This document shows, piece by piece, positions 1,145 through 38,919 of a DNA stretch of 64,000 nt. The stretch is taken from assembly GCA_963920765.1 (NCBI GenBank), contig OY987247.1, forward strand, positions 17,704,471 through 17,768,470. Direction: 5' to 3'. The notes below the pieces were generated by a model that searched no databases, was not told the origin of the DNA, and saw only the letters and a program-made list of their open reading frames with translations. Made by a program: the position numbers and the translations under genes. Position 1 is the first letter of the stretch. Every line of letters begins with the position of its first letter. The DNA is from Ulota crispa. Its lineage: Eukaryota > Streptophyta > Bryopsida > Orthotrichales > Orthotrichaceae.

Positions 1145-2075
1145 TTAACCCCTAAAGACCTAAAGACCCAAGGAACCCACTTTGGGCTTTATGAGAACTC
1201 GGGCAGGCTCTGTTGACTTCATAATTCAGAATTTTTTTATGAAATTTTTAGGATAGATGCTACTCATCATAATCTACATGTGGAGCTTCATTTCATGTCA
1301 TTTAGATAAGTATTGCAAAAGTTATAAGGTTTTCTCAATTTCAATGTCTAACTGGGCAGCAAAAAATGTATTCTAATTTTTTTTAATTTTTTATATTATA
1401 GAATAGTATAGATTCATACCTACTCAAAAAAAAAAATGAATCACTCAATTCCAAATAATTAGGTAAGAGTTACAAGGAGTTTACTTTTCCGAGCAATGAA
1501 GGTAGGAAGAGGGTAGAAAAAACATATAAAGTTATCTTTTACTCTCAATTTTGAAAAATTACAAATGAAAATGAAAAATATAGTTACTAATTGTCTGTTA
1601 GAACATTTTCACCATTGGTATTAACAATTTTCAAATTCTTCCAAAACTTATTAGCATATTAGTTATATCTTTCATTTATCAATACCTTTCACTTTACAAT
1701 TTTTGTAAAAATGAATCCAACTTTTTTTTTTGTTAAATTTTTTTATATATGCTTTCAACCCATTTTCTGACATATTGCAAAAACTGCACAAGAAATACAA
1801 CATATGTATTTTTTTCTTAAAAAATTGAAAATCAAAACTTCACCTTTTGGAAGGATTAGAAAAACTTACATTTTGAAAATTAGGCACATTGATCTTGCAA
1901 TTGGTGGGGATGTTCATTCTGAAATTTTGGGACAATGTGGTTGAGCAAGTCAACTAAAAGAGCCTACGATTGAATTTGTTAAAAAGTAAGTTTTAATGAA
2001 GATTTTACCTGGTTTGGGGACTAATATTTTGAAGTAGTTTTGGACCTCTAAACACAAAAGAATTTTAGGGGTTAA
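1145..2075. mobile_element. TTAA-bounded non-autonomous element, copy A (931 bp)
   Basis: The left end reads TTAACCCCTAAAGACC and the right end, read inward, TTAACCCCTAAA. TTAA at both outer edges is what a piggyBac-type TTAA duplication would give. Inside the left end a short hairpin forms from CCCAA (about 1,167) and TTGGG (about 1,182). The segment GAGAACTCGGGCAGG at about 1,194-1,208 recurs, inverted, near the right end of copy C, and the AAGTTAT...GGGCAGC core near 1,317-1,357 is shared with copies B and C. There is no transposase frame. Family membership is seen in the sequence; the superfamily assignment is inference. Confidence 0.65.
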
Positions 2076-2623
2076 CAAACATAATTTACAAGAAGCTTGT
2101 ATGCTGCACATAGGTGTTAGTGGGGCCAAGGTGGAAATGTTTAAAATTTTCACCTAGCCAGAAAATGTACTAGTTTGGAAACCTGCCACTTGGAGAACAA
2201 ATCTTAGAATTTTGGATTCATGTTTGAATTTACAGATCTTGCTTTAGCCTAAAACGCGGAGGGAGACAAAATTGACCAATTACAAAATATGGGCATACAG
2301 TGTTGATTTTCACTTCTTTTTTGGTAAAAACTCAAGCTTTTCCACTTTAGCTCCACGAACACGCATATGTAGTATCCCACCACCAGGGTGAACTCACCCC
2401 TTTGTTGCCTTTCACTTGGATGAATGGATTGGGACTTGGGTTTTTGCAAATTTATGCTTGTGGGGACACAATGAAAAAGATTGACTTTCTTACAAACAGC
2501 AATAAAAGTAAGAACATACTCCTATTTTGAAGTAGGTTGATTTTGATTCCTTATTAAGGCCCAACACTAAACCAGCATTCTTGAATCTAAATTTGAAATC
2601 AAATTTTTGTTCAATCTTTTGCT

Positions 2624-3563
2624 TTAACCCCTAAAGGCCTGTTGTCCCTTTGGGGACTGTTTGGAGTTTGGTCATGTATTTATGAGTAAACTACTTTATG
2701 TAATTTTCTGAGACTTTTATGGGAGATGGGGAATTCAAAGATCTATTTGGACATCAAATTTTTTCTTCATTCCAACATTTATTGAAGAAGTTATGCATGG
2801 TTTTCTGAAATTTTGGGGAGAGCTGCCCATCCGGGCAGCCCAAAAACTTCTTTAAAAATTAATTTTTTTCAAAATTGAAAATTGAAATTGGTTCTTTAGA
2901 TTTTTTTTATAGGTGAGAAGCTTTGAATCATTCAATTTCAATCAATGACATGAAAGTTATAAGAATTTTTGTTTGCGGGCAATTATGGATTCCCTACTCT
3001 AAAATAAACTTTGAAGTCCTTTATTTTACTCAATTTTCAATATTTTAGAAAAAAAACTAAACCAAAGGAAGTAGATTGTTTAATACAACATTATCACCGT
3101 TGGGATTTGCATTTTTCATTTCAATAATTAGATTCTTAACAATCTAGTGTTTTGACCCATTCTCTACTTCTTTTTACTTATTGATTTTTCTCATGTGCTA
3201 CATAGTTCCAATTGATTTGAAAATTCTCCCACACATACCTAACTTGGTCTTCTACATGGGAAAAAAAACCTCAACTTTGCATAGAGCAAATTTTTTGATA
3301 TAGGAGTGGTCAACGGTTTCTGAAATTTTCAAGTAGTATGAAAAAAAACTTTTTCCTTCGCTTTGCATGTAAATATCTCACTCCTTTTCATTTGAAAAAA
3401 GCTCAAATTTTTTTCCCAAATACCTCATACTGTCTAGAGCAAGATCTTAAGATTGTAAGGTTGGATTTCAAAAATAAAAACAAAAAAACAATTCCTTTCA
3501 TCCCAAAAATGGCAGTTTTCGTTGTTTTTCACATAAAAAATGGCCTGGGCCTTTAGGGGTTAA
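2624..3563. mobile_element. TTAA-bounded non-autonomous element, copy B (940 bp)
   Basis: The ends are TTAACCCCTAAAGGCC on the left and, read inward from the right, TTAACCCCTAAAGGCCC, with TTAA at each outer edge. A small hairpin (GTCCC, loop TTTG, GGGAC) follows the left end at about 2,643-2,656. The interior carries the AAGTTATGCATGGTTTTC and GGGCAGC core shared with copies A and C. The only frames are short and AT-rich, so no transposase is encoded. Confidence 0.7.
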
Positions 3564-4023
3564 GTTTCTAATCTGTCACATTTTGTGGCATGTGTGGCAT
3601 GTGAACTTGTGAAGATCTGGAGCATTTCCACCCTGGCCCCACAAACTCATAATGCACTAGACCGAGCACCGGACCCATTTATCCAGGTAGGGGGAGCAAC
3701 GAAGGGGTCACCCGGCCCTTTATCCCAAATTCCCAACTCCCAAGCCATCACAAGACAATCCACAAAAGAATGTCAGTAAGGATTTTGCCCAATGTCAGTA
3801 TCCATACCGTTTTCAGGAACATTTATGCTTGGCAGAAGACGTGCAAACTCACAGTCCCAGTTAATAAAACTAATAAAATAGACATGAACCATGGAACATG
3901 AGAGCACCATTGTTCTCTGCATTTCAACAGAACAGATGAGACCGTGAGAGACCATCCAAATGAAGGAACTGCATAACATAACTAACATGCATATTCATGG
4001 AATTAAAGCTACCCCAAGTAAGT

Positions 4024-4988
4024 TTAACCCCTAAAGGACCAAGGGTGTTTTTTGAGAAAAGATCTCAAAAACTGTCAACTTTTAGTGCATTGTCCAAAAT
4101 TGAAATTAAAAATCTTTTTTCTCAATTCCAACCATACAAAAGTGTGCAAAACATATAAAATAATATGTGCAAAAAAATTCAGTCCATTTGACCTCGTGGA
4201 TTGTAAAATTATAATGTTTGAAGTGAGAAAAACTACTTTTCTTTATTCTTGCAAAACAAGGTCAGCAGGCTTTGACCCTTCCTATATTAAAATTTTTGCT
4301 TTAAACAAATTTGAGCTTTTTGACCATTCACAAGCTTATGATGTTAGGTTCACTCACAAAAAAAATAAGATTCAAAAATACAATCTAGCTTGTTCAAAAT
4401 CATCCTCCAATGCAAGGAGGTTTAGTGAATTGGCAATACATTAGTCATTCTTTCATGATTTCTTGTGCAATGAGGAAGTTATTTATTTGAAATCTGAATG
4501 GTGAAAAATTAGAGACAAACATTTGAAACATACAAATTTCTTTTTGAAGAGCTTTGGATTTATAGATTGAAAGATAACAGGGCTTGAAGTTAGAGGATTT
4601 TTTTTTTCTTGAAACTACCCAAACATAGTTAACAAAGTTTGACTCCCTTCAAAATGTGATGTGAGAGCTCTATTTTTTTTTATTTATTTTTACAATTGTA
4701 CACCATGTTTTTTTAGTAACATACTTGCCAAATTTCAAAAGTTGATGAAAGTTTTAGCATAAGATTCTCCAAAGATGCCCAAATTGCCCAAGCTGCCCAA
4801 TTTCTTTTGGGCAACATAACTTTTAAACCAAGCATCCGATTGAGGAAAAAATTACATTTCCACTTAGGGAATACTTATCCGCACCTTGTGTAACAATTTT
4901 GAAGACATCCAATAAAAATTAACTCCATAGGACCCTACCCGAGTTCTCAAGTGACTATTCAACAGCCACTTGGTCCTTAAGGGGTTAA
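4024..4988. mobile_element. TTAA-bounded non-autonomous element, copy C (965 bp)
   Basis: The left end is TTAACCCCTAAAGGACCAAG; the right end read inward is TTAACCCCTTAAGGACCAAG. The terminal inverted repeat is about 20 bp with one change and TTAA forms both edges. This is the best-preserved pair of ends in the window. A 9-bp stem with one mismatch (CAAGTGGCT / AGTCACTTG, about 4,944-4,969) sits just inside the right end. The interior shares the TTGGGCAGC/AAGTTAT core with copies A and B in the opposite orientation. A 130-codon open frame at 4,052-4,444 has no recognisable domain and is probably chance. Confidence 0.75.
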
Positions 4989-5381
4989 GCCTAACCTAAA
5001 AAAAAGGACCGGTATACCTAAAATAACAATGAAGAATTAGTATCACAACGTTTGGACAGTTCAGAACGTTATATTAGAGTGACTCTATGGCATGTAGTAA
5101 GTATAGATTTTCATGTAATTCAGGATTCTGTTTGTAAAATGTAGGGAGATATCTTAATATTAAGGGACATTGAGTTGTTGACATTTTGTAGATTTACAGA
5201 AATTTTGCATATAATATATGCAAAACATCCAAAGATCTCCTAATGTTATACATATGGATTATAGATTTTGTGTAGTTTGAAATTAGTTATATAAGCAATT
5301 TATATGTTTCTAATGCACGTGTATAGTCTGAAATCCTCAACTTTGTCTTCACATTCCTGTTAACACCAAAAAGTTTAGGGG

Positions 5382-6295
5382 TTAATCCTTTAAGGACCGC
5401 GCGACCATATTTTGGTCGCTAGGAGTGGTTTTTGGCATGTAGGCTGAAATTGCTCAATAATTTGGAATTTGGTCTTGAAGTACGCATGTGATCACAAGAA
5501 TTTTGCATCCATTTAAAAAAATAACAATGCAATTGGGTATGTGAGTTGACAAATAATGATGTTTATACGGCATGGCTTCAAAATACATATCCATTTTTTG
5601 TCAAAGATGGATCAAAGCAACAGCACAATGCATCAAGTATGCAAGAAGAACGTCAAGTTTCAATTGCACAATTCGAAAAAAATTCAAACTGCTTAATAAA
5701 TATGCTTGTATTGATTTCCTATATGGTAGTAGTATAATTGTAGTATTTGAAGATCTACTAAAATGGTGTTGTCAATTCGGCTTTAAAATACGTCATCTTA
5801 CATTTAAGGCCAACTCTTGATTGCTTTCACCAATCGGATTTTCCATGACAATTATCAAATTTCTTGTAGAATTGTTTTAGGGTAGTAAAGAAAATGAGAA
5901 TTTTTACCCTTTTTGTCCACTTAGCTACACCTTGTGATTGCTATTTTTGTCTATTTTGTGTGAAACTAATATTGTTGAAAAGGTGGGAAACCTTGCTTTT
6001 TAGAAATGTAAGGCTCTTTTCAATCAAAGCCTGCATGAAGTGGTAACATTCAAATCCACACAAGCATGAAACACTAAAGATTTTCCACATACGGCTCACT
6101 CCATCATTATAATGTTTCACTTCCAATGGTAAATCTAGTTAAAATTTTGGTGCTTTGAAGTGAACAAGGTGTACTTCCCATTTGTACGGTTGGATTATTA
6201 AAAATAGGTCCATATTTGAGTTAATTGCACATCTAAGCTTACAGCCCCTGTTTTTAATGGATTTTGTGAAAATGGGTGTGGTCTTAAAGGATTAA
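5382..6295. mobile_element. TTAA-bounded non-autonomous element, copy D (914 bp)
   Basis: The left end is TTAATCCTTTAAGGACC and the right end read inward is TTAATCCTTTAAGACC, bounded by TTAA. A clean hairpin GCGACCA - TATTT - TGGTCGC occupies 5,401-5,419, directly after the terminal repeat. The TTAA at 5,382 is also the right edge of a TTTAGGGGTTAA terminus, so another element end abuts or overlaps here. The interior differs from copies A-C and contains only small frames without known domains. Confidence 0.65.
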
Positions 6296-6647
6296 TAAAG
6301 TGGGAATTCAATCATTTGGATGAAAATTGCATGGACTATGAAGTCCTTAGAGTTATCACTTTATAAGTGAAAGTAGAGCCATTTACACTTTGTCGCATGC
6401 TCCAACTTTACACATCCCATCTTAGTTTCAGATTCCAACTTTTTTGCGTTTTAAAGGGTAAAGATTTCATTTATATGTTTTAAAACCAAACCTTTTATAC
6501 TAACAAAACACTTGGGACTTGATTCCCAAGCTGGAATTATATGTTTTTTACATTTAATTCTAAAGAGCAAAGCCCCCACATCTTTTGTGGCATAATTTTC
6601 TAAAGCCTTGTTGTGTTATGTAGGCAAAGGTGGACTTGAAACCAGGG

Positions 6648-6790
6648 ATAAGGTAAGAGGCTCTAATTTTGTGTAGGCTCTAAAATAGTGCACCTTCTTA
6701 AATGTATTCAATTTGTACATGTTGTATTTTATAGCCTTTTAACAATGTATATATCAAATACATTTGAGAAGGTGCACCATTTTAGAGCCC
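6648..6790. mobile_element. Short foldback MITE with GGCTCTAAAATGGTGCACC arms
   Basis: The left arm at 6,676-6,709 (GGCTCTAAAATAGTGCACC then TTCTTAAATGTATTC) pairs with the right arm at 6,757-6,789 (AAATACATTTGAGAAGG then TGCACCATTTTAGAGCC) around an AT-rich loop. The outer left end carries TAAGGTAAGAGGCTC with a partial duplication of the arm start. The same arms occur in the nested foldback inside MCM6 intron 1 (37,964-38,158), so this is a dispersed family. There is no coding capacity. Confidence 0.7.
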
Positions 6791-6950
6791 TAAGAGCATC
6801 CCCAATGTAGCCGTAACAAGGCACTAATTTTTTTTTACCAATTGTTATGCCCAGTTTGAGTGAAAATGAAGGCTCCAATGTAGCAAGTACTTGCAAATAT
6901 AATTTTCAAGGCTCCCCCATGCAAGAGCCCCTCCCCTCCATGACTTAGGG
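6791..6950. repeat. Dispersed AGAGCATCCCCAATG repeat copy
   Basis: AGAGCATCCCCAATGTAGCCG opens the segment and CATGCAAGAGCCCC closes it, with GGCTCCAATGTAGC inside. Related wording is present at 24-370. The copy directly abuts the foldback element ending at 6,790. It is probably an old non-autonomous transposon fragment of a kind common in plants; the termini are not certain. Confidence 0.4.
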
Positions 6951-7692
6951 TCTGAGACAAAGTCTGAACTGTCCTTCTGTTGTCACAAAAAGAAAAATTT
7001 ATTCTAAGCGTAGTTGAGGTCTACAAATGGCATTCGAATGGATACAAAAATACATAAGAATTTGCACTTGAAGTTCTTGTCTTAATTTCCGTGTCTTTGT
7101 ATTCAACATTATATTTTCACGTTAAAGTATTGTCAATATATGTTTAGGGAATATTTTGGTAGCACAGAAGCATTCAACCCTTAGAAACTAGACATTCAAA
7201 TCTAAAAATGTATGAAATGAACTAAACATGTTCCATGCATACAGAAACTTATTTTAATCCATCCACATGTTGTTATCAAATTCCTGTGTTTAGCAGTTTA
7301 CATTTTTTTTGTAATATATCTCTAAGTCCTCCCTTTGCAATTATTCTATATTTCAAGGAGTACAAGTTTGTTCCACCTTAAAATTAACAATTTTAGTTCA
7401 TGAATGAACCGAGGAATGACCCATCAGAAAAAAACAAAAACAAAATTATGTTTGGAATCATTTTTGCAAATCACCACAATTCAAATTTAACAACATAAAT
7501 GTTAAAAAAAAAGAGGCTTATGAAAAATGGCTAATTTTCAGTTCATAATTTTTTTTTAAAGAAGGAATCTTTGAATTCCTCATTTCGATATTCATTGATA
7601 AATAGCGGTGAGTGCATTGATAGATTTGTGTATACAAATATGACATACGGATCATTTTTGTAACTTTTGTTTGAAAGTAGTCATTTAATTAT

Positions 7693-8097
7693 GGGAATTG
7701 ATATGTGTACACCGGGGGTTGATATTTGCACACCCCTTGGAGATATATTGTAGATTCTACCATTAAAAGTCTGAATTTGAGAATTTTGAATTTAGATTTG
7801 GATTTAGAGACCATGGCTTACTCTAGAACCATTATAAAAAGTTGTAATTAAATAACACTTAATGAAAAAGCTTAGTTAGTGGAAAAAGTGTTACTTTTAT
7901 TTTTGTTTGTAAAAAAGATAAACTTTTTCATTGGTTGTTATTCAATTGCAAACTTTTTTATGATTCTAGTGTAAACCATGGTCTCCAAATCCAAATTTAA
8001 ATTCAAAATCTCAAATTCAGATTTTTGACTGTAGAAATCTACAATTTATCTCCGGGGGTGTGCAAATATCAACCCCGGTGTGCACATATCAATTCCC
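7693..8097. mobile_element. hAT-like MITE, GGGAATTGATATG family, copy 1 (405 bp)
   Basis: Long terminal inverted repeats start GGGAATTGATATGTG and end CACATATCAATTCCC and extend inward for well over 100 bp, including GGTTGATATTTGCACACCCC and an AGAGACCATGG / CCATGGTCTC pair. The element is flanked by a perfect 8-bp duplication TTAATTAT (7,685-7,692 and 8,098-8,105). Eight-base duplications are typical of hAT transposition. Sister copies lie at 53,818-54,225 and, truncated, at 27,006-27,155. Confidence 0.85.
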
Positions 8098-8105
8098 TTA
8101 ATTAT

Positions 8106-9978
8106 TCACAAAGGGAAAGGAGAATTTGGGAATATAATGATATGTACGACCCTCCCCCGCTCCCCCAATGAAGGGCCTTGCAGGCTGGATCAAGCGTTTG
8201 GATGTGGGGACACTTGTAGATTTACTACAGAATTGCACTTCATGCAACATTATTCCAGGAGCTTAAATTCTGGTCATTTAAACCCAGCCTCACGCAAACA
8301 TCATCAAAACAGAGCACATGTATGGTGATTTGGTGAGTTGTCAACATGCATCGGGAGTAAGGAGTAATGACTGCACCTTTTAACTCCTTTATGGAACCCA
8401 GCTATCATTGTAGCAACAACTCAGAAACGGAGAAAAAGAAAAGGAAAACATGAAAAGAAACTACTGTAGATAACTTGCAGTGATAACTTAGCTTGAAAAA
8501 AATTGAAAGCTCTTGTGAAGTACGAGCACCCATATCGTCCCTTCTTGCAATTATTCCCCTTAGATGCATTCATAATTGCACTTGACTTAATCCGAATATT
8601 TAAAAATGTGAGAGGTGAGTTATAGAGTGCAACTAAAAAGAATGGTTTGATGCTGATTCTCCAACAAAAATTGGAACTACAATGTATATATGTTTTCATT
8701 TTAAAATTAAGAATATTGTTTGGGGATATGGTAGATATTTAATCGTTTCGTTTATTAAGAAATAAGAGTGGATTGCCAAATATTCCCACTCTTAAAAAAA
8801 AATCTCTTTTGAGTAAATGATTGCTTTGATCAATGAAATGCTGGGATTGGTAAGATGAGAAAAACTTCTTTCATTGTTAGTGGATGAAGTGTTAGTTTTT
8901 TTGGTTTCTTCTTCTTTTTGGTCTTATACACTTCATGTAGGTGTGAACAACCCAAATGAAGTATGGAATACCAACAACCTGAATAGGCACCAATCTTTGA
9001 TCTTATGTTTGATATTGTTATAATCAAATATATTCGTGTATACAAACAATATCTCTTATCATGACTTCATGGTTTAATTTGTCATTTTTCATGACAAGGC
9101 TATATTTCCACTTTCTTTAGTCCATTTTATTTAACTAAATAGAGTTTTGATAATTTGATCACATTTTCTAAATGCATTCGTAGTACAAGTGGTGAATACC
9201 ATGACCATCAACTCTGTAAGAAAAGAGCAAAAATTACTAATACTTTCAAACAAGAATTCCAAAATTAGCTCAAAATTCCTAAAATTTGGTAGAAATTGTC
9301 AAAAACTCAAATATTAGCACATGGATTTTAATGTATGTATGCCTCCCAATTCAAGCACACCTAGCAAAGCTTGACATTTGTGCCATATTTAGCATTCTAC
9401 CGATGATCAAATTTATTTACTTGTTAAGCAAAGGTATCCTTGTTCAAACAGACTAACTTATCACCAAAATTACTGCTATTTTTTGTTGATGCTATTTTTT
9501 ATTTTTTAATTGGAAATTATCACAACATAGTACTACCTTGGCTAGCAAGGATTTTAATACATCATCAGTAGTGTCATTCTTGTAGATTAGTGTTCAAAGC
9601 ACAACTATAATAATCAAGACTTGTCAAGGGGATGTTCATTCCATGTCCTAAGGTACAAGATTCACAAGTCTTGGAACTTGAGACATTTTTTTGACCAACA
9701 AGAGTTTGAGAACTCAATGTAACGTGGGGCTTGAAAGCCAGGCCACACTAACAAAAAAAAAAAACATTCCAAAAGGACACTTAGGTATAAGACAAGTGGC
9801 AGTACTTACAACTTCAAACCAACAGTTCCTAACTTTTACCCTTGAACGGTGAAGATGTTATTTTTAATGCGGACTTTGACAAAGACAAGATGAACCCAAC
9901 TTTCAAAAAATGCAAAGTATCTTCTATTGTCATTGTCTACTCGTTGAACTACGCACCTATCTCTGCTTGTAAAATAAA
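8106..9978. other. Intergenic, nothing recognised
   Basis: AT-rich sequence between two MITEs. Short open frames on both strands, for example on the minus strand at 8,421-8,699, show no domain, no splice-linked continuation and no codon bias. No RNA gene or repeat was recognised. Confidence 0.5.
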
Positions 9979-10404
9979 GGGAAAACTTTATGGATACCTC
10001 TGAAGTCTGCCACATTTGTATAGATACGCCTGGTTTTTCAAAAATTGCATAAATACCATTGGACCACAATTTGCAGGCATTTATTTTATTGTGCATGTCA
10101 CTTCCTTCTCTCTTGTGTGTTAATGTCGTGAGGCAAATGGAGATTTCCCAAATAGATTATGTAAATCTGAAAGACAAGGGGACTAAAAAATGCCAAGTCT
10201 CATTTCCTTTCTCTCTTATGAGCTAGTTGCTTATTTTCTGTTCTATTACATACCTTGCTTTAGTATTGGTCATGAAATAAGTAGCATGCACAACAAAAAC
10301 AAACACCCAAAAATTATGGTCCAAGTATATTTGTGCTATTTTTGAAAAACCATGGGTAATTATACAAATATGGCAAACCTTAGGGGTGTCCTTAAATTTT
10401 TCTC
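9979..10404. mobile_element. Mutator-like foldback MITE, diverged copy (about 426 bp)
   Basis: The left arm GGGAAAACTTTATGGATACC then CTCTGAAGTCTGCC pairs with a right arm that ends near 10,404 and includes TGGTCCAAGTATATTTGTGC and GGCAAACCTTAGGGGTGTCC. The central spacer (TTCTATTACATACCTTGC and so on) is shared with the copy at 24,469. The flanks TAAAATAAA and CAAAATAAA match at 8 of 9 positions, consistent with a 9-bp target duplication. This is an older member of the family at 21,120, 32,840 and 37,843. Confidence 0.7.
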
Positions 10405-11284
10405 CAAAATAAAACATTGCATGGAACCTTGAGCACAATAATTGCTCCCCATTATCTCAAATTATCTTCACTGGTGTGTCAAACATGCTCAAAGTGAATA
10501 AAATTGAGGGCCCTCTCAAATCCCTCTCAAGACACTTTGTCCTATCATTTCTAGCAAGGGCCCTTTAAGACATTATTCATTCTAAGTTTAGTGAACTCTA
10601 TCCTCTATTTTCCTTGATAAGTGGTCAAATGATTATTTATAAGGCGTGTTGAAGTGCAAGGCCACCTTTTTGAAGTGCATGGGCGGAGATCAAGGAGCTT
10701 AAAGCCCAAGGTTTTTGTTTTGGGTTTTTGTCAAGGTAGAGCAACTTGCACCCTAGAACGCCCGCACATAAGGAAAGATAGGCTAATATTAGAGTGAATG
10801 AATGATATAAGCACAATTCATCCAACAAGTTTACTAACATAAGCTACTTTCATCTAAAAGTTGGCAAACCGGATTTCTGCGTGAGGAGGGAGTTGGCATT
10901 TTCATTCAAACATTTACCAATTTTTTTTAGTGTAACGATCACCAACTTTAGTTTGAGGTAAGGTTTAGGCAAAAAATTGCCAAGAAAAAAACCCGTGCTA
11001 AAGCCCTTCAAATATATAGATGGAAACCTTTGAACGCACGAGGACCGGTGGAGATGCTCTCAAGAACACATTTCACTTTGTTGTCCATTCTAAACCATAG
11101 TCCAAAGAGTTTTTTTTAGCTTAAATAGCCAATATCCTACACTCTCTTGGGCCAACTGGTTGTCTAGAGTATACTTTTGGCTAAGCCGATAGAAATAAAG
11201 AACATTATCTTTTTTCTTCTTAAATGGTTGGTTTTTTTCCTAAACTTTTAAATTTAGTTGGGCAATTCTCAAAATTAACTACAA
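10405..11284. other. Intergenic, nothing recognised
   Basis: AT-rich non-coding DNA. The only notable motif is GGAGATGCTCTCAAG near 11,049, the complement of the dispersed AGAGCATCTCC motif, marking the edge of another old repeat copy. No gene-like frame was seen. Confidence 0.4.
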
Positions 11285-11579
11285 TACACCAAATAGTGGA
11301 TTTAGGTTGCCTCAACAATTAGGTTGCCTTACCTTGGAAAGTTACCTCATGACCCACCACTTGCCTACTTGGAAAAGCATGCAATTCTTTATAAACTTAG
11401 ATTTCACTTGATTTACAACTTGAATATTGCTAGTCTGTCTTTCTACAACTTTTAGTAGTTGCCAAATCTTTTAAAAATTGTTTATTACAATAATTATAAC
11501 TAAAATTTACAATAGTATTTAAATAGTGTGAAATGTCAAGAAATTAGTATGGGGCAACCTAAATGCACTATTTGGTGTA
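11285..11579. mobile_element. Short MITE with TACACCAAATAGTG termini
   Basis: Left end TACACCAAATAGTGGATTTA then GGTTGCC (11,285-11,311); right end GGCAACCTAAATGCACTATT then TGGTGTA (11,553-11,579). The two match as inverted repeats of about 27 bp with a single substitution. The interior is AT-rich and non-coding. It lies a little upstream of the GC-rich promoter region of the EDR2-like gene. No clear target duplication could be fixed. Confidence 0.65.
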
Positions 11580-11689
11580 GCTAGCTAGCAACTAAATGCC
11601 GGTACTCCACGTACAGTAATCTAAACGGGTTGCTCCTTTGACTACAGCATACGAGGCATAATCGACCAAAAAGGCTTTGAGAATGGAAT

Positions 11690-13113: not shown

Positions 13114-16100
13114 ATGGAAAGCATGGAAGGATGGCTGTATTTGATCGAGTCCAACAGGTTGATGATGACCAACCCTCGCAAACGCTACTTCGTCATCTGC
13201 GGCAACTGGGCGTGTTTCTGGAAGGACAAACCTGCAAAACGAGAGGAGGTACACACACACACACACTCTCTCTCTCTCTCTCTCTTCCTGCTAACCCTAT
13301 GGATTTTCTTTCAACTTTTCTTTTAGCTTTGAAATCCTCGGACACTGCAAACAGATGTGGAAGTCGGCACAACGGCCATTAGTTTGTTGTTACTCCCGAG
13401 AATTCGGTAGGTCAAAGTTTATGGGCAAGATTTGAAGGGCGTGGTGTTGGTAGGCTTCAGCTGTGAAGATGCTTGGGTATTGCCGTACCCTTGTATGTGA
13501 TAGGTTTGTTTTCTGAAAGAGAGAGAGAGAGAGTATATGGTGGTCTTTAGTTAAACTAGTAATGGGAATGAAATATAAATCTATTGCGAGTTAATCTGTG
13601 AGTATTGGTACCAGTTTCTGAACGAAAACAGCCTTGGGGCATGGAGTAACCAAATTCAGTACCTCCAATTAGCGAATGCCCTTCTTTGGCAGTTGGGGGT
13701 GGGCTTTTAGATGGAGATGTCCTTAAAACTACACCCTGATGGAATTTCAGTAATCATTGAGCTTGACGGACTTGCTTGGTTTATGAGGTTTGCTGTTTAA
13801 TTCTTAGTGAACCAAGCGCTTTTGTTACTGAGAGGAAGGTTGACTTAGGAGGTCTGCTTGAGCAGCGTCAATCCTATTTACTTCTGTGTTGCATGTGTCT
13901 CCACTTCCCTATAAAAAGATGAAGAAGAAGGAAAGAAACCACAAAGAAAAGAGTAGAAATGTGGAGGGAAAATTAACCATGACTGGAAGCTTTATAGTAG
14001 GGAAATTTTTAGAGTTGTGATGAATGGAGTCGATTTATGTATTTTTGGTGGTGTTTTTCTTATGCAGGCTCCAATCAAGAGTGGCACCATAGACCCTTAC
14101 ACGAGAGTGACCGATCATGGGCGAGAGAACATCCATGGCCGGACTCTGTTTGTGTTCAGCATCTACGACTCTTACAACCACGAAGACAAGCTCAAGTTTG
14201 GAGCACGGAGCTCTGAAGAGGCAGCCAAATGGATGGAAGCATTTAAAGAAGCGGCTGAGCAGGTGGTTCCCCCTTTGCACACAGAATCTCAACCTCCCTC
14301 CTCTAAAAAAATAAAAAATAAAACGTCACTACCAAGTTCACAGTTCAGTTTACAATTGGGATTTTGATGATAAAGAGTTTTTCAACTGAGTGCAGGCACA
14401 TCTTCCAGGAAAGGATAGGCCCTTTGTTCCAGCTGGTGGGCGACGCAGATACCCTTTCAGGTATGGTGATATTCACATAATCTCTTTCAACCTGAAGACG
14501 ATTAGAATCAGTAGTCTCGCAACCGAATGTTAATTTTTACTACTTCTCAGAAAGGTCACCAAAACGTGCAACTACTGTAGGCACTAGTGATCACGAAGAA
14601 GTTTATGTCTTTACTACAGAGTAACGGACGTACGTCAGAAGATCATAAGAAATTACGCATTTTGGGACCCATAGTAATAGCTTTGAATTTGGTGGTCTTG
14701 GCTGCTGAGCAAGTATACTTGTCAAATGTTCTGTTTATGATGATTTTAAATGTGGTGAACTGTCAGGCTTTCGGGGAGAAGAGGGAGTGGGCTTGTCAGA
14801 GAGCAGTCTGGGGGTTCTGGTCTTGCCAACAACCATCCCTTTCGAGAAGACTCAACAACTCTTGCAGGTGGTTCTCGAATTTTCCAAGCGCAACAGTATA
14901 TACATGAGTCCATTCTTTGCAACGTAACCTCAGTGGAGTTTAGTTATATACAAATAGCAAGCACTTGTTGAATCGAGAGTGGCATGTTATTTCTCATAAT
15001 ATGGGGTTGCCTTAGTGTTATGGTGTCCTCTTTAGACTCTTGATTGAACATGATTCAATCATTAAGGTTGTATTTTCATGTTCCACAGTCTATGAAATTT
15101 TTTAACCCAAAGACTTCCTCTCTTAGTCCTTGTGTGACACCTCGTGGAATACCCTCTTTTATACTCGTTTACCCCTTTTATTTATTACTTAATTTTTCGT
15201 CTGTTTGCTGCTTGTGCCAGATTTACCAGGGTGGATTGGGTCATTACTTCCAAAGGACGCATCGCCAGATGTGATAGCGGATTCGCCATGGCAGATTTTC
15301 GGCTGCAGAAATGGTAAACAACCCTTAGTGTGTGTAATAAGGCTTGCTTCAGCTTTAGTCATGTGCTGTTGTATGGCTGGATTTTGGATCTCAAACGTGA
15401 TTTCAAAATTAGTTCAAGTTCCAAGAAACACTGTTAAATTTGCTAAAAGAAATATCAAATTCAGCACCCTAGTATTCAAATTTTGAGTTTATGTTGAAAG
15501 AGTTTTGGTAGAGGTTTTGCTAAGTTTACGTACACGTATGAATACCGCTCATGATACCTTTTTTTGTGTGTGTTTTTAGGATTGCGATTATTCAGGGAAA
15601 CCACTGATCACCATGGACTTAAGAGTATGGTAAGACCCTTGAGTCTCTGTAGCTTAGTAAATTGCTGGTTCGCTCTGATAAGTGTGCAGTTTTCATACCC
15701 ATTATATTGAGAAGCACTCAAGATGTACGTGGGGAATATGTTAATGTCTGTGTTTGATCATTTATTACACCTTTGAATGATTTAATGGTTGGATTTATTG
15801 ATTTGTTTGTTTATTTCCATGTTTTAGATACGTGGAGAGGACCCACCTGCGTTGATGGCCGTGGGAGTGGTGCATGCCACCTGTGAGTCCGTATTTGAAA
15901 CTGTCATGGCCTTGGGTTCCTCACGGGCTGAGTAAGGCTCTCTCTTCTTTACCCTCCTCCTGAAACGTAAAAAATCTACACTTATTGTACCTTGTTTAGT
16001 GCGTTTAACATAAAATTGCAAGAAAACAATTACTTGTAATATGTTGAAATTAGTGCTGGTTGAAACATTTACTGCACTGTATTAATTTTCTTAAAGTTCA

Positions 16101-19100
16101 GTTAGTGCTTGGCAAATCCGTAAACTGGTTGCAGTCTACAGTTGCTGAGGTAGTATTTGGCAAATCTGTAACCTCTCTAGTCTTTTAGTTCCACAAATTA
16201 AAATTCTTCTCTTAGCAAATTTGTAACATTTTTAAATTGGCAATGGTTCTAATATTGCTCCTTCTCTCTTTTAGGATATGTGAGTGCAGTTTATAGAAAG
16301 TTGGACCCTTAAGAATCACAAGTCTTGTAGAGCAAGTTGAGTACTATATTAAAGTTTTTTGACTGTAAGATCAGATTATTCGTTTGTTTTAATGTATCTA
16401 TATGACTTGGTAATGGTTTAGCCGATTGTCAATTATTATTGCCAGTGTTGAATTTGGTTTCCGGTGATCTTGCGCCTTTCAGGTGGGATTTCTGTTATTT
16501 GAAGGGGAGAGTCATAGAGCATATTGACGGCCATTCAGACATCGTCCACAAGCAGTTCCACGAATATTGGCTTCCTTGGTACGAGATTGATCTACCTTAA
16601 ATTTATTTCCTTTTTAGGAAACACTTCTCTACTTGCAAATTATGACTGTATTGCACGTCTAGTCAAAACTTGCCATTGTGCTCCTCAAGAAAAGTCTAAA
16701 TTATTTAGTTCAATCCAGTATGTGTACATTTGAGTCTAGCAATTTTCATGTTCAATTTCCTGGGTAGATTTTGTTATTGTTCTTATTGAAAGAAACGCAG
16801 GCGCATGAAACCAAGGGACCTCCTTGTGCATCGCTACTGGCGACGTGAAGATGATGGCTCTTATGGTTAGTATTCATAAAATTTCTATATAAATTACCCT
16901 TTCTTTGTTTGTCCTCTTGAGAGGAGATTGTTTGCTATTCTAGTCTCACAATTGATAACATTAAACAATGCTTTGAAAATTGTGCGTTATTGTAGATTCG
17001 GATGACATAGTAGTAGTTAACAATCATCAAAGATACACAATGGACGGACTATGGAGAGTGTACAGGTGGAATGAGAAAGTAAGAAGTGTACATAGCTTTG
17101 TTGCATTTCTAACAAACTGCCTGTGTGTGTTTTCTTTTCTATTTAGTAATCCTCTACACGTCGGTGAATCATGAGAAATGCCCTCCACGGAAGAAGTTTG
17201 TGCGCGCCTGGCTCAAAAGTAAGCAATCTCCTCACTCGGATACACTAGCCATACCTTGAAGGTTGTTCTTAACTCAGGCTTTTGATCGTCCCATTCCCGT
17301 TATTCTGCAAGTCTTGTCTAATTTTCCAGCAAACTCTACCGTGGTTCACAATTTCCTACATTAAATTTAGAGGCGTGCAAGTGTAGGTGGTGGCTACGTT
17401 ATATCTCCGCTGCCGCCACAGGGCGGGTATCCACACCGCTGCACGGTGAAGCACATTCTTACCGTGGATTGGAAGCACTGGAGTAGCTGCTGGAGCCCCT
17501 GCACAGACAAAGATATCACTCTCAAAGTTCTCGAGAGAGTGGCAGGTATTTCTCTACATTTTCACTATTTCTGCTCCAGCCTCTATTACATCAATGAACA
17601 AGCGTTCAGTTTCATGACAGAGCTTTTGCTCTCAGCTTTGAAGTAACTGAAATTGATAATACGTCTTTTCATATTCGGTATGCCTTGTGGGAATAGTATC
17701 AACGCTCACTTTAGATTTTGCACGAGGAAACGAGTATGGTTTCTGAGGTTTTGTGGTACATTCAGAGGCTTGTTACTTGATGGACTGAACGTGGATTCAT
17801 GGATTTTCTCTTTCAATGTTACAAAAAACATGATTTGGTGTGTGTAATGCACCATTTTTCTCGTGTCTAAACATGGAGATTCACACAACAGAATGGTTTG
17901 GGTTTACTGTAAGGAAGTGGTGGAGTAGTAATGGAGTTGGATGAATGGCGTGGGGGCAGCGTTGAGAGAGTTTTGCACGGTGAAGCCGGCGAACTACATG
18001 CCGAGCTCCATGGGAGGCCCAGACCTGCGACGGCTCAAGGTGGGCGGAGGGTGTCCGCTGGTGGTGGCGAAGAAGGACAGCCTAGCGCCGGTGCTGCTAA
18101 ACGGCGACACCACAGCGCTCCTGGCGGAAGACAAGGCAGCAGCAGCGGCGGCAGTGGGGCAGAGCATGTTTCGGCAGTTGGCCGAGGACGAGTTCTTTGA
18201 TGTTCCCGAGGACTCAGCCTGGGACTTGGAGCTGGAGCCTGATGGGCAGCAGCACATAGACCTGGAGGGAACTTCTGACGAAGACCAGGTATTCTTTCCA
18301 TCCTGCCCCCTACTCTCTCTCTTTTTCTCCTTCCTTCCTTTATGTTTTAAAGTTTTTACCTCTCTGTCCCTCTCTCAAGGACGAGGGGGTAATCTTAATA
18401 TAAAACAAAGTGGAAATGTGTGTTGTACTTTGTAATGGAAGAGTAGTTGAGTGGTGATTGTCAGATGTAAGTTGTGAATTATAACTCTTTGGATATTGTG
18501 TGTGTTTAAGAATCTCCCATTGCACTTACTAGTATTTATCAATACATTTTGCAATAGCTGATTCAATCTTTTTTCAAAGAGTTAGTCGTGAGTGAATGTT
18601 AGTTATCTTTTGCACAAGAAATTTTTGGTATTGAGCTTAAAATGTGTACTTATGGTCAATTACAATTCTTCATTTAGCTCGTTTGTTTGTTGAGGTTAAA
18701 ATTTTAAGCGGCACTTTTTGAACTAGTTAAGGATACTTTTTGAATTGAAACATGTCTATGATGAGATGTTTTGGTGATCTATGCCATTCAAACTTTAGAA
18801 AATCATCATAGGACTCTAAGAACATTTGGACGTACGGGAAAAGAAGAAAAGGTTGTTGAATGTTTAGGACATGTTTACATTCATTCTAATTTGCACTCTT
18901 GCTAAGTAATGGATTACGAAATTGTTCTTTTCTTTTTTAAACTCTTTACAAATATCTCTCTTTATGATGTTTAGCCCTAAGGGCCTAAGCAGTCAACGTG
19001 GTTGCTTACACATCTATAGGAATCGAAATTCTTCATTTCGGAGCTTCTATTGACCAATTGTAAGAAGAAATTATGCCTTGTAGTTTTGGATAGTCACTAG

Positions 19101-22100
19101 GGAAAAATCACGTTACGTTTCCTAAGATTTGTTCTTTCAAACGATGGTCAACTGTATCTGACAAGAGTTGTTTTTTTTCGACCTTTTGTTGAAAAATTGT
19201 TGAAAGACATCCTAGGAACCATAAACAAGAGGTGGTTTTGTACTTGTGAATAGAGATTTTTTCTGTGGATTTTTTGTAGTCCTTTTATTTCAGTATAAGC
19301 TTACTAAGCTTTTTTTTAGTCTAGTCAGTTTAGGGGTTAGTTCGTTTCGGTGAAGAAACATGCCAAATGTCATGTGAGATATTGAATTCTTCTGAATCGT
19401 GATTCTTCTCATCTTTTCCTGATAACTTTGTTTTTCCACCTTTCCTGCTCTACTACAGAACGGAGGCACTCCCAAGTTGTCAGCAGCTGCCAATATTGTG
19501 AAGCGCTTCCAAGGGATTACAGGTTTGTTTACTCTACCTCCCCAAAATATTCAATACATGGCAAATGCTCCGTGTTTTCCAATTTGGTTAGAATGTACAT
19601 TTTGATAAACTTCTGTGTTTCACTTTAACCCCTGAGCGCCCGATCGACAGTATACTGTCGATCAAAAAGCTGGGTCAACTCAATTTTGATTGCACGTCCG
19701 GTGAAACGACTTCCAATCAAGCCCAGCATGATAGAGACTCTTTCCACTAACAATTCATATGGTCGGATCTTGTGGATCGTATTTTTCAGTCCACAGGAGC
19801 ACTTTGATTGCACACAAGTTAGGCTTCTTTCGTTTCAACTCTGGGCGCTCAAAGTCCTTCGTGAGATTGAATACTCGCTTGTCCTAGAGTGTGGCATCTA
19901 CAATTCGTTCTAGCTGACTTGGGTTTGTTGTTTATTCAAGTTGCAGCTACCTTTGTTCATTGTCAATATGCAAAACCAAAGTTATTCAAGTTGTTGTGCA
20001 CTGGGGAACTGAGCCTCTCGGTGGCCAAATAATGAAGATTTATTTATTTATTTTTTGTACCACATCATTAGTTGTTAGTTTTTTGTATTGCGCCGTTTTC
20101 ATATGTTTGAGTGGTGGACGTATTTTTTTTTCCAGCTCAAAAGCGGACGCATCAGGACAGTGGTGTCCAAGATGACATCGACTTGCTGGCGAAGGTAGGA
20201 ACTCTGCCTAAAAGCTCCAGCAACAGTTGCACTGCCAGCACCACGCATTCAGCAGAGGCGAGCACCTTCTTGATTCGAGGCAAACGCTATCTCCAGGACC
20301 GGAAAAAGGTAGCTTTTTTTAAAAACAAAATAAATAGTTTTTCTTCTTTGCTTTTGTAACGTTCAAATACATTTGTGATATTGGCCGTAGTTTTTGTTCT
20401 TGATGTTAACTTTTTGGTCATATTATTGCAGCTACATCAAATTCGCTTTTGGCCGCTTTTGTTTCTTCCTTATTTTCTTATTTCAGCTAGAAAACCCTCA
20501 AATAATACATCAATTGTGCACCAAATTCAGTAAAGCTAGAGAGGGTGGACAACCGTCCACTCCCTTTTCTAATAAGAGATCTTTTTTGCGCAGTTTTTGT
20601 TTGATAGTAATTTAGGCTTAATACACACTAGTCAAACATTGTACACACTTTCAACGAACCTGCAATGACTCATGGTAGATGTTTAAGGGGTTGGTTATTG
20701 TTATTTATTTCGAAAATGTTTACTTTTTGGGTTACAGTGAGACTCATGTGATTATGTTGGGCTCCTGGAAACAGGTGGTGGCAGAAGATCCTGTAATGCA
20801 ATTTGTTGCAGCCGACTGGTTGAAGTCCAACAAGAGAGAAGACAACCTTGCAGCGCGACCCTCAAATCCAGTTCAGCTATTTTTGGCTAATCAGGTACAT
20901 TGCAAAATCTCTAATGCTCATGTTTTTTAGTACAAGGATTACGCAAGCAAATCAAATTCTTTTTGGTTGAGAGTCTTTGTATCGAAGTATCTCACACACA
21001 AGTGTTATTGACACAGAGGAAGAAAGGAGGAGTGGAAGATGTGTTTTTCTTTGTCATCAACATTCAAGTAAGCCCTACTTTAATCATCTTAGACTGCGTT
21101 GGTAGTATTATGTCTTTTAGGGAAAATTTCATGGATACCCCTGAAGTTTGTAATAATTTCATAGATACCCCTGCTTTTTCAGATACCCTTGGACCAAAAC
21201 TTTCAAGCGTTTTTTTGTCGAGCATGCCACTTCCCTTCTTCCTTTGTGCGCACACATAACAAGAAAGAAGTAGTGTGTGCAGAAAGGGAGAGGGGAAGTG
21301 GCATGCACAAGAAAAACACGCTTGAAAATTTTGGTCCAAGGGTATCTGTGAAACTCCTGAAAAAGCAGGGGTATCTATCTATGAAAATATTGCAAACTTC
21401 AGGGGAATCCATGAAATCTTCCCTATATTTTATTTATGTTAAGGGGATTAATTCTCCGGTGCTATGAATTGTTATTAGTGGAATTTTATTGCTGATTTCA
21501 ATTCCATGATTGTGGTGGGGTTTTTCAGGTTCCAGGGTCCACAACACACTCTTTAGCTCTGTATTACATGATCTCGCAGCCGCTGTCAGACTTCCCGTTG
21601 CTTCAAAATTTTGTACATGGAGATGACCGGTACCGCAATGCGGGCTTCAAGCTCATTCCACACATTGCAAAGGGCTCCTGGATTGTGAAGCAAAGCGTGG
21701 GCAAGACGGCTTGTTTGATTGGAGAAGCTCTGGAGATCACGTACCACACTGACAAGCATTACATTGAGGTTAGTCACACACGCACCATTTGACAATTGAG
21801 ATAATCCACCACACCATACCACACCCCTTTTTATGGTACCAAACTTGAAGCTCCTAAGATTGAAAAAAGTTCGAAGTTTGATTGTCTTTTATTTTTGTAT
21901 GTATTTTGTTTAGACATTGGATGTGTTACGAATTTTTGAAGTAATAAGGCTTATTCACTCGCTAGCACAGAGTACCCTAGAAACTTAAGTGTTGATCTAT
22001 GAAGTATCTCATGGAAGCATCTCTGATTGTGATGGAACTTAATAGCACCTTCTCTTTTTTAAGAGGCGCTTGGTTTGAATGAGTAGGAGCATAATTGGGT

Positions 22101-23236
22101 GACCTTTCATTGCAAATAGGTTCTTTACCTTATATTTTCTTCCTACTTTTTTCAACTATCTTCTTGGTTTAGTTATATGGCTGTTTAGAATTTTTGCACG
22201 TAGTTTTTATTAGTAAAATTTCATAAAGATATTAGTCTGCACGAGATTCAAATTTTTAAATTCTATTGCTTTATAAAGGTATAACAGTAACAAGTGGTGT
22301 GCGTGTGCACTTGTTTTTCTGCAGTTGGATGTGGACATTGGCTCATCCTCAGTAGCAAAGGGCGTAGTAAATCTGGTGTTGGGTTACTTGAGCACACTTG
22401 TCATCGAGCTGGCTTTCCTCATCCAGGTAAAAAATTTCTCACTTTTTTAAGTTTTTCACTTCACTTTCACCCGTTCCTGCGGGGTTGGTTTTTTTTATTT
22501 GTGTCCCACAAAGATGGGAACCTTGCTAGTGAGGCAGTATCCAACCACTTTAATTAAACCTCACTCTCTAAAAATATGGACGAGAGATATAACATCCTTT
22601 AGCGAGAAATATTATTCAGCAATGATAGTGGGGGTGTCTTTGGAGTTCATGCCAAAAACAAATGGGTACCTTTATTCAGTTTAAACGGAGAAAAATCAAC
22701 CACTGATGGAAATCATTCGCGTTGATTACAATGCTATTTCTAAATGTAGAGATACTGGTTTCACTTGTTCCTACGTGACATTCCAAAATGTCTTCTCCAA
22801 TGCACGGTGATGTCTAATTTACAACCTCTAAAAACTGCTAAACACTTCACTTGTTTCTTTGTTTTAAGAAAGCTTTGATATCATGCATGAGACCAAATCT
22901 CTTGTAGTATGTTATGCATGTTGTTTTCAGAGTATTTTTATGTACGCTAGTGTTGGAAGCTCTGACAGACATTGCAATAGGTTTATTTTTATTTCTATAT
23001 TTATGAATAAAAGCACATTTTGAAGTTCAATTTTAACAATGTTTATGAATTGTCTATATGTTTTGATTTTTCTTACCCAATTTTTTTAATGTAAAAGTTT
23101 TTGTGGAGGAGTCTCACATCTTGGGTTGCGTCTGTGCCAGGCTAATACTGAAGAGGAGCTACCAGAGTATCTGCTGGGCACATGCAGGCTGGTAAACCTG
23201 GACATTGCAAAAGCCATTCCTGCACGTCCAGAATAA
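13114..23236 (+). CDS. EDR2L: EDR2-like protein (PH-START-DUF1336), 19 exons, 769 aa
   Basis: Exons: 13114-13248, 14068-14262, 14396-14460, 14767-14867, 15221-15313, 15580-15629, 15828-15931, 16483-16578, 16801-16865, 17147-17218, 17387-17545, 17960-18288, 19459-19522, 20136-20308, 20775-20894, 21017-21067, 21529-21768, 22325-22426, 23141-23236. All introns are GT-AG and phases join without a stop. A PH domain (residues about 1-110, opening MESMEGWLYLIESN) is followed by a START lipid-binding domain (about 190-400) and a C-terminal DUF1336 (about 550-765), which contains TFLIRGKRYL, VPGSTTHSLALYYM and LDVDIGSSSVAKGVV and ends near ELPEYLLGTCRL. This is the architecture of ENHANCED DISEASE RESISTANCE 2 and its plant paralogues, lipid-binding proteins that restrain defence-associated cell death; the 769-residue length fits the family. 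Exon 12 encodes an acidic, alanine-rich linker absent from the core domains. Introns 13 and 16 carry mobile elements. Which EDR2-like paralogue it is cannot be decided here. Confidence 0.93.
13251..13284. repeat. (AC)n(CT)n microsatellite at the start of intron 1
   Basis: AC repeats run directly into CT repeats immediately downstream of the exon 1 donor (exon ends 13,248). A (GA)n tract also occurs in the same intron near 13,518-13,533. Both are simple repeats. Confidence 0.9.
19625..19855. mobile_element. TTAA-family element, copy E, in EDR2-like intron 13
   Basis: The left end TTAACCCCTGAGCGCCC is followed at 19,642-19,663 by a perfect 22-nt palindrome whose half-site is GATCGACAGTA. A degenerate right end is suggested by GGGCGCTC at about 19,845, the complement of GAGCGCCC, although TTAA is no longer present there. 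The element lies between exon 13 (ends 19,522) and exon 14 (starts 20,136), so it is transcribed with the gene and removed by splicing. The left boundary is well supported; the right boundary is uncertain. Confidence 0.5.
21120..21423. mobile_element. Mutator-like foldback MITE in EDR2-like intron 16 (304 bp)
   Basis: The element is nearly one long inverted repeat. Its left arm starts GGGAAAATTTCATGGATACC and contains three ATACCC blocks (GGATACCCCTG, AGATACCCCTG, AGATACCCTTGGACC). The right arm mirrors this and ends GAAATCTTCCC. The outer flanks TGTCTTTTA and TATATTTTA match at 7 of 9 positions, as for a decayed 9-bp duplication. It sits between exon 16 (ends 21,067) and exon 17 (starts 21,529). 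The nascent transcript would carry a hairpin of roughly 150 bp. There is no coding capacity; minus- and plus-strand frames across it are artefacts of the repeat. Confidence 0.85.
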
Positions 23237-23710
23237 TGAAAAGGGGGCGGCACTTCCCAAACAGGGAAACCCATTGAAGAATTTAGGGTTTCAAAACCCG
23301 TTTTCCCAACCAACTTAGGATTTCAAACCTGTTTTCCTAATTCAGGGTTCCAAAATTGTATTCCTATGGACGAAAAGTAGAGAGAAAGACCTAGAGAGAA
23401 TTAGAGAGAAGTGAAACGGAGGAAGAGGTAGAGAAACGATTCTTTGGAGTTTTCGTTAAAAGGAGACTCTAGAAACCGATTCAATTTTTGTGTAGCTGAC
23501 AATTCAAATGGCCATTATTATTTTTTATTTTAGGTTGAATTGCCTTGTAGATAATGGTAACTGAAATACATCAACATTCATATACTCTGAAGCTTGCAGT
23601 CATCATTCAACATGACTCGGACCTTGGCCCTGACCCTGGCCCAGAAAAAGAAATTATGGGCTTGGATGATGTGGAGTCATGTAAGGTGGAAGGCACCCAT
23701 ACCCGATAAC
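23237..23710 (+). other. 3' flank of the EDR2-like gene
   Basis: This follows the TAA stop at 23,234-23,236 and probably includes the 3' untranslated region. It contains a repeated phrase, TTTCAAAACCCG / TTTCAAACCTG with TTTTCCCAACC / TTTTCCTAATT, near 23,289-23,342, and purine-rich GAGAGAA runs near 23,380-23,430. No terminator-type signal can be assigned with confidence. Confidence 0.4.
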
Positions 23711-23938
23711 TTAACTCCTGAACGGCCCATCGGCCATTTCTGGCCGTACGGCCATATATACAGCCATATTTGAGCTGCTTTGATGGCTTTCCAAAAAAAA
23801 TTATGCACTCATCATTGTACAACCCTTCAATATGTATGATTGTAACACTTAATTTTTAGCTAATTCAAACTTTTGAATATTAATTGCAACCGTATTTGGT
23901 ACCGTATCTCTAGAGCCCAAGGGCCCTTTAGGGGTTAA
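23711..23938. mobile_element. TTAA-bounded element, copy F (228 bp)
   Basis: The left end is TTAACTCCTGAACGGCCC and the right end read inward is TTAACCCCTAAAGGGCCC, with TTAA at both outer edges. Immediately inside the left end lies a hairpin, CGGCCA - TTTC - TGGCCG, at about 23,731-23,746, followed by GGCCGTACGGCC. This short copy keeps both ends and little else, which makes the family boundaries easy to read. Confidence 0.7.
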
Positions 23939-24468
23939 GCAATTTTGCAATAAACCACAAAAAGTTTGAGGCAACAAACACCTTTCCCATGTAGGAAGAT
24001 AAGAATTATTGGAATTGCAAATTGTTTAAATTTATATTTGCTAAACTGTAGTTATTGTGAATTTTGGGAGTCAAAAAGTGCTTTGGACCCATTGCCAACC
24101 CCTAACTCATGCAATTATGATGATAGTCAAACTACTTTCTACTCATTATTTTCTATTTCATTTTGGGACATGGTGTGACTTAAGTGGTCCCAACCTTGAA
24201 AAGGACAAAAGAACACATTCCAAAGCACCTATCCTTGCTGAGATTGAAAATGGTACACCCTATGGGTTGGGTATGGGGCGTTGTTGGCTACGGGTGCTTC
24301 CGCCTTAATGTTTTTCAGATGGTCATGGAGATTTGAAATTATGTTGTTTTCTATTTCATGGCTTGTTACTCTAGGGAACTAGCAAGTGTGCTGTAACTTG
24401 AGTTCAAAAAGTCGCTGGTTGCTAGGTGTTGTCTTCTCATGTAGACCTAGATTGGTTTGGGAAATTTT

Positions 24469-24707
24469 TATGGAAACCCTTGAAGTTTGTTATATTTGTA
24501 TAGATACCCTTGGTTTTTCAGAAATTGCACAAATACTCTTGGATCATAATTATCAGGCGTTTGTTCTATTGTGCATGCCACTCCCTTCTCCCTTGTGCGC
24601 ATGCTGTTTTGTTTATGTTCTATTACATTCCTTGCTTTAACATTGGTCATGAAGGGCAAGGAAGTAACGTGCATAACAAAACAAATGCTTGAAAATTATG
24701 GTCCAAG
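24469..24707. mobile_element. Mutator-like foldback MITE, truncated copy
   Basis: The left arm begins GGGAAATTTTTATGGAAACC and runs through ATACCCTTGGTTTTTCAG and the spacer TTCTATTACATTCCTTGC shared with the copy at 9,979. The right arm stops at ATTATGGTCCAAG, so the terminal part of that arm has been lost. It is therefore a defective member of the same family. Confidence 0.7.
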
Positions 24708-24808
24708 CAAAACAAGTGGCAACCTGGCAGGCCAAGGAGAGAATCAATTAACCCTTAGAGGTGGTGATAGTGGAAATAATCCCTTTTAGTACCATGTAAA
24801 TCACTAGC

Positions 24809-25208
24809 TTAACCCTTAAAGGACCGCTAGGTGGTTGTGGCCTGCCCACACTATAGGTTCAAGAGTACTTTTACTGTAGGTTCAACATTGTTTTGGTTGA
24901 TGAGCACCAATAGTATTGCTTCTAAAAGTTTCAAAAGTCAATCATGCATGCCGACCTCATGAAATTGCAATAAGGACAGCTTGGGACCCAACACCATGAT
25001 TTTGAATTTTCTCACAATTTGAGTTACCTAAAAATATGAACATATTTGATAAGATGATTTTTTCCCTTCTATGATGGATCATGTGTTTACGGTCACTTTG
25101 GAAAAAAAACAGATGAAAAACGATTTTTTTTTTTTTTTTACAGAATTTTTTTTCAGGGCCAACGGACGATAAAGGACGATAATCGTCCTCATGGGCGTTT
25201 AGGGGTTA
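24809..25208. mobile_element. TTAA-bounded element, copy G (400 bp)
   Basis: The left end is TTAACCCTTAAAGGACC and the right end read inward is TTAACCCCTAAACGCCC, with TTAA at both edges. A near-perfect hairpin, GGACGAT - A - ATCGTCC, occupies 25,174-25,188 just inside the right end. The interior includes a poly-T run near 25,127-25,139 and no open frame of note. Confidence 0.7.
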
Positions 25209-27005: not shown

Positions 27006-27155
27006 TGGAAATTGATATGTGCACACCGAGGGGTTGATATTTGCACACCCCCTCCGGTTACATTATAGATTTCTATCATCAAAAAGTTGAATTTGAGAAA
27101 TTTGAATCTAGATTTGGACTTAGAGGCCATGATTTTGTTTAGAACCATAAAAAAT
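27006..27155. mobile_element. Truncated GGGAATTGATATG-family MITE (left part)
   Basis: GGAAATTGATATGTGCACACC then GAGGGGTTGATATTTGCACA matches the termini of the copies at 7,693 and 53,818 and continues through AGATTTGGACTTAGAGGCCATG. The homology stops near 27,150 and no right end is found, so this copy is broken. Confidence 0.7.
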
Positions 27156-27249
27156 GTTGCATGCTTGTTTGCCTTGCGGAAGCTTGATTTGCTATACCTT
27201 CTTCTATGTCGTGAATGCATCAATTTATTTCTTATTTTTGTTTTTTGTT

Positions 27250-29964: not shown

Positions 29965-38642
<8,678 letters not shown>

Positions 38643-38881: not shown

Positions 38882-38919
38882 TTCCTCATCGGAGACGACG
38901 ATGGGGCTAGTAGACCCTA

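Follow-up and report, generated by a model that had tools for sequence, protein, structure and literature searches.

Non-autonomous piggyBac-like elements and thousands of piggyBac-type ends in a probable land-plant genome

The stretch of DNA analysed here (64,000 nucleotides, positions 17,704,471 to 17,768,470 of contig OY987247.1; hereafter the window) contains seven two-ended elements with inverted ends and TTAA outside, as well as two lone ends at 19625 and 49306. With high confidence, we place the elements in several lineages of the piggyBac superfamily, as non-autonomous members that have multiplied in what is probably a land-plant nuclear genome. The end sequence TTAACCCYTAAAGGNC has 24 matches in the window when up to three mismatches are allowed, while shuffled sequences give a mean of 3.6 and a maximum of 9. 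Five of the matches are exact (2624, 3548, 4024, 23923 and 24809); the others have one to three mismatches, and some of these inexact matches are surely chance. Short inverted ends that start with CCC are the general rule, but the element at 5382-6295 starts with TCC at both tips. No convincing partner end was identified for 19625 or 49306. The original prediction had listed at least eight elements and one lone end: its repeated termini and TTAA edges are confirmed by these matches and by thousands of exact ends genome-wide, its count is not.

Comparison with copies elsewhere (loci are cited by L numbers) distinguishes at least six families among the window elements, named F1 to F6. The F3 element (1145-2075, forward strand, 931 bp) has inverted ends with TTAA on both sides and a relative in L007 with 89% identity over 921 bp. 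The F2 element (2624-3563, forward strand, 940 bp) has two exact ends, a left end with a palindrome at 2624 and a right end at 3563. The F1 element (4024-4988, 965 bp) lies on the reverse strand, with the palindromic left end at 4988 and the right end at 4024. The F4 element (5382-6295, forward strand, 914 bp) has the left-end palindrome GCGACCATATTTTGGTCGC, and its right end resembles ends in L032 and L033 (80-85% identity). The F5 element (401 bp, reverse strand, palindromic left end at 25209) has relatives in L005, L035 and L036; it had been placed at 24809-25208 and is indeed present, but extends one base further, to 25209. An extra end-like site is found at 24748, just beyond this element. 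The F6 element (39802-40217, forward strand, 416 bp) has a relative in L034 and tips that resemble, judged by eye only, those of the transposase element L041. A short element of 228 bp (23711-23938, forward strand) has end matches at both sides. All seven are non-autonomous. Both lone ends are left ends on the forward strand: 19625-19664 has a visible palindrome with a centre other than bp 25, and 49306-49344 has the palindrome GGGGACAATTTTTGTCCCC. Some families are partly related internally (L001 and the F2 copy in L006 are 75% identical over 362 bp); other pairs of families are alike at the tips only.

Genes of the window bear on the host. One is, among solved structures, closest to MFP2 of Arabidopsis (E 1e-39, next best match 2.3e-24), although the best match in the Protein Data Bank (PDB) is a weak guide to the host, as this database covers few organisms. 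A second gene encodes an EDR2_C domain together with a weak PH match, and an MCM gene, closest to MCM6, is located between the two. The MFP2-like and EDR2_C genes fit a land-plant host and lend support to the plant host that had been proposed. A host outside the land plants, such as an alga or another eukaryote, is unlikely; it would make the presence of piggyBac less surprising.

Within the 275 Mb assembly, the 16-base end is found 15,552 times as an exact match (7,808 plus 7,744), while its reversed control has no match. When the F1 element of the window was used as query, the genome search returned 1,807 candidates, of which 40 were scored: 33 of these 40, the window copy included, span the full length from 1 to 965, showing that both F1 tips are true boundaries. 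The 39 scored copies other than that of the window are 85-93% identical to it, and TTAA is kept on both sides in 10 of 11 F1 copies examined. Pairwise divergence among 15 F1 copies, which were mostly picked as the closest to the window copy, has a mean of 9.9% (minimum 5.7%, maximum 15.2%). With a mean divergence of about 10%, the spread of F1 is not recent. The genome carries thousands of piggyBac-type ends: the superfamily is known, but the host is unusual and the copy number is very high.

To read the target site, the two flanks of each of 31 elements were joined and used as genome queries, with 40 candidates scored per search. Three clear paralogous empty sites were found (L041, L059 and L003), with 11 to 14 paralogs read for each. 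The empty site of L041, a transposase element of 5.56 kb, has a single TTAA in 12 of 14 paralogs, with TTAT and TCAA in one each; that of L059, an F1 copy and sister of the window element at 4024-4988, has TTAA in 10 of 12 paralogs and TTGA in two. The elements at these sites have therefore duplicated TTAA, four bases, as is typical for piggyBac. PIF/Harbinger and Tc1/mariner are sources of common plant miniature elements, and an empty site alone cannot separate TTAA from a TAA or TA duplication nested within a longer preferred target. However, among 10,191 exact ends the base outside the tip CCCCTAAAGGAC is T 9,807 times and another base 384 times; the exceptions listed fall on all three other bases, which is the pattern expected from mutation. 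This conservation of the outer T argues against a duplication of TAA or TA, which was rejected on this ground. Neither the outer base nor the empty sites of L041 and L059 show the 3-bp TWA duplication of PIF/Harbinger. As the partner elements moreover encode a piggyBac-type transposase (see below), it is extremely improbable that the window elements are PIF/Harbinger or Tc1/mariner miniature elements. At L038 (372-376 of the reverse complement) and at L043 (122-126), neighbouring element ends meet at a single shared TTAA, the arrangement expected when one element lands in the TTAA that flanks another.

A genome search with the profile of the piggyBac transposase domain (PF13843) found 528 candidates, of which 116 were scored; at least 120 matches were reported, the best with E 1e-73. 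Larger stretches were taken for 15 transposase loci, and at seven of these the DDE_Tnp_1_7 transposase lies inside an element of 5.0-6.7 kb with TTAA-CCC-type ends: L029, L032, L038, L040, L041 and L043 have TTAA at both ends, while the left TTAA of L036 is mutated. The tips of the transposase elements vary and include CCCCT and CCCTT, CCCTC (L041), and CCCCA and CCCAT (L040). An open piece of L031 has the moth piggyBac transposase 6X67 as its best PDB match (E 1.8e-17), with D268, D346 and D447 aligned. The catalytic DDD triad is complete in 15 of 23 copies checked, 20 of which are the best-scoring copies of the PF13843 search. The cysteine-rich C-terminal motif, defined by a custom pattern, was detected in an open frame at five of 20 loci; the other 15 had no match. 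In L035 (about 2650-4341) the transposase consists of two open pieces, 267 bp apart and without stops inside the matches; the gap is possibly an intron.

A link between window elements and transposase copies is provided by F2. Over its last 350-370 bp or so, tip included, the element at 2624-3563 matches L037 and L039 at their 3' ends with 75-76% identity; for the F2 relative in L006, identity to these two ends is 79% and 72%. In L037 and L039 the F2-like stretch sits downstream of the transposase and reaches the tip. Separate insertions of F2-like sequence into these two loci were considered and rejected: collinearity between L037 and L039 is seen in the upstream sequence, the transposase and the 3' region, and the shared 3' end is therefore part of the transposase element. 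In L042 an F2-like stretch lies upstream of the transposase and is probably a separate copy. The 3' end that it has in common with the transposase-bearing L037 and L039 identifies 2624-3563 as a non-autonomous derivative and also orients it, with 3563 as the right end and the palindromic 2624 as the left end.

Many ends have a palindrome after the tip, at a fixed place but with a sequence that differs between families. When all possible palindrome centres were compared, bp 25 was the best over 52 ends (44 of them non-redundant). It was again the strongest over 56 non-redundant ends, left and right mixed: nine ends pair at five or more of six positions, while shuffles give a mean of 0.41 and a maximum of 3. 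Shifted palindromes that are visible but score low at bp 25 are present at 19625, L006 and 2624. When ends were assigned by the direction of the transposase, seven of eight left ends pair at four or more of six positions (chance 0.046 each; mean 0.69), the exception being L032; such pairing is found in only one of the 13 right ends, which have a mean of 0.24 (background 0.26). The eight left ends are not fully independent, because L029 and L036 are close relatives; further, the left ends of L036 (likeness to L029) and L042 (exact tip) were chosen with palindrome scores in view, and without these two, five of six qualify. Of seven right ends tested, only that of L041 has a further copy of a left-end half-site (the script can overstate mismatches). 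A palindrome that is centred at bp 25 in the left end, is absent at this position from the right end and differs in sequence between families is newly described here. For moth piggyBac, the C-terminal domain is described to bind, as a dimer, a left-end palindrome at bp 17-33, with the minor groove narrowed at about bp 25, and asymmetric ends are described as needed in cells (PMC7351741, in the sections consulted). By analogy, the palindrome of the left ends may bind the C-terminal domain, and its place, matching the site of this domain in the moth element, is the strongest mechanistic clue found here.

Movement of the window elements can be pictured as follows. A transposase from the partner elements of 5-7 kb would recognise the CCC-type tips, a dimer of its cysteine-rich C-terminal domain would dock on the left-end palindrome, which has its centre 25 bp inwards, and the element would be excised and inserted at a TTAA, duplicating these four bases. 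It is likely that transposases such as those identified here moved the window elements, and excision may have been scarless.

Several findings weigh against assigning the window elements to piggyBac-superfamily lineages. The third empty site, of the F1 copy L003 (C1:52018-52972), has CCAA in 10 of 11 paralogs and TCAA in the remaining one, but never TTAA. This is still one site of 4 bp, and it is possible that the target copy had mutated to TTAA before insertion or that TTAA is not strictly required. For 26 of the 31 joined-flank sites no empty site was among the candidates scored, which means little with only 40 candidates scored per search; L057 gave one weak match only and L007 one poor paralog, which was rejected as too diverged to read. 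F1, F3, F4 and F5 match transposase elements, if at all, over short tip stretches (for F1, 27-29 bp of the tip plus 69 bp at 75% in L031). Eight of the 15 transposase loci have one recognised end or none, at least one catalytic D is missing in eight of 23 copies, nearly always by a change of D to N, and no fully intact transposase was identified among the scored PF13843 copies, most of which contain stops. Finally, a second inner palindrome in the right end, as in the moth element, was not found: no centre stands out over 17 right ends. As for the missing residues, the decayed transposases L010, L015, L016, L020, L021, L024 and L033 have D to N changes, as cytosine deamination would give, and L017 has the only D to E change.

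The lack of a long match to a transposase element in most window families would also suit another superfamily, Kolobok or Sola3, whose members duplicate TTAA too but have transposases of another kind; the window elements would then have nothing but such ends in common with unrelated piggyBac elements. However, the transposase elements with TTAA-CCC ends encode PF13843 proteins, F2 shares about 370 bp with L037 and L039, and the left-end palindrome is located as in piggyBac, so that we regard Kolobok or Sola3 as very unlikely. The assignment to the piggyBac superfamily, by comparison, is supported by the empty sites, the partners and the 3' homology of F2. The non-autonomous piggyBac-like elements of the original prediction are thus borne out, as are the empty sites with a single TTAA that it anticipated (at L041 and L059); the TWA duplication named there as a contrary result was looked for and not seen. 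An autonomous partner had also been expected: there are elements with TTAA-CCC-type ends that carry a PF13843 transposase, but an intact gene was not established among them.

The window has other repeats too. One repeat family without TTAA-CCC ends occupies five places (9976-10405, 21117-21424, 24456-24707, 32831-33160 and 37813-38319), and several of its copies have long, imperfect inverted arms. A second inverted-repeat family has GGGGTTGATATTTGCACACCCC-like tips (7677-8113, 26994-27162 and 53811-54238) and is also found in L012 and L022 near transposase copies. Short tandem arrays are located at 715-834 (unit of about 24 bp), 38760-38892 (about 20 bp), 49067-49228 (about 51 bp) and 50530-50774 (about 27 bp).

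PiggyBac is best known from insects and other animals. In the literature searched, we found no description of a native piggyBac from a moss or other land plant, which is not proof of absence. A review of land-plant transposons has six superfamilies of DNA transposons in the order with terminal inverted repeats (TIR), and the word 'piggybac' is absent from its text as far as covered (PMC9033089); another source, following Wicker 2007, counts PiggyBac as one of the plant superfamilies but gives no example in the text examined (PMC10794571). PiggyBac is also said to have been isolated from insects, fungi and plants, again with no plant example in the text examined (PMC10813416), and one sedge genome table has zero piggyBac (PMC11751304, table entry). 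A candidate plant report was discarded, as the one examined of its two text matches is the word 'piggybacking' (PMC10619864). The original statement that such elements are rarely reported from land plants fits these sources but is not provable from them.

The occurrence of 15,552 exact ends in a single, probably plant genome would extend the range of natural hosts of piggyBac and make plant-evolved transposases and ends available for testing beside the moth element. With its fixed place and changing sequence, the palindrome offers a direct test of the specificity with which the C-terminal domain binds. We judge it about as likely as not that piggyBac has undergone a large and diverse radiation in a land-plant lineage, with a left-end palindrome whose position stays exact while its sequence turns over between families. 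Such a radiation would document, in nature, the co-evolution of the transposase's C-terminal domain with the site that it binds, and it might be the reason why so many non-autonomous families can exist side by side without mobilising one another.

Further known systems invite comparison. Lanisha, reportedly a moss transposon, is like the window elements a cut-and-paste DNA transposon. However, in the sections consulted it is described as EnSpm-like (cited to Maumus, McDaniel and Carey 2020), in a group mostly with CA..TG termini (PMC12730594), which rules it out as the identity of the window elements. The piggyBac families of animals share TTAA, tip motifs such as CCCTT, CCCTC and CCCAT, and a DDD transposase, but their hosts are animals, and the study, as far as consulted, is limited to animal genomes (PMC10813416). 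Moth piggyBac (Trichoplusia ni; 6X67/6X68) differs in size, with about 2.5 kb compared to 5.0-6.7 kb for the transposase elements described here, in which, moreover, palindrome sequences vary by family and the inner right-end palindrome was not found. It is alike in the TTAA duplication, the CCC tips, the three catalytic D, the cysteine-rich C-terminus and the left-end palindrome, which has its midpoint at bp 25 in both (bp 17-33 in the moth element, according to the sections consulted of PMC7351741).

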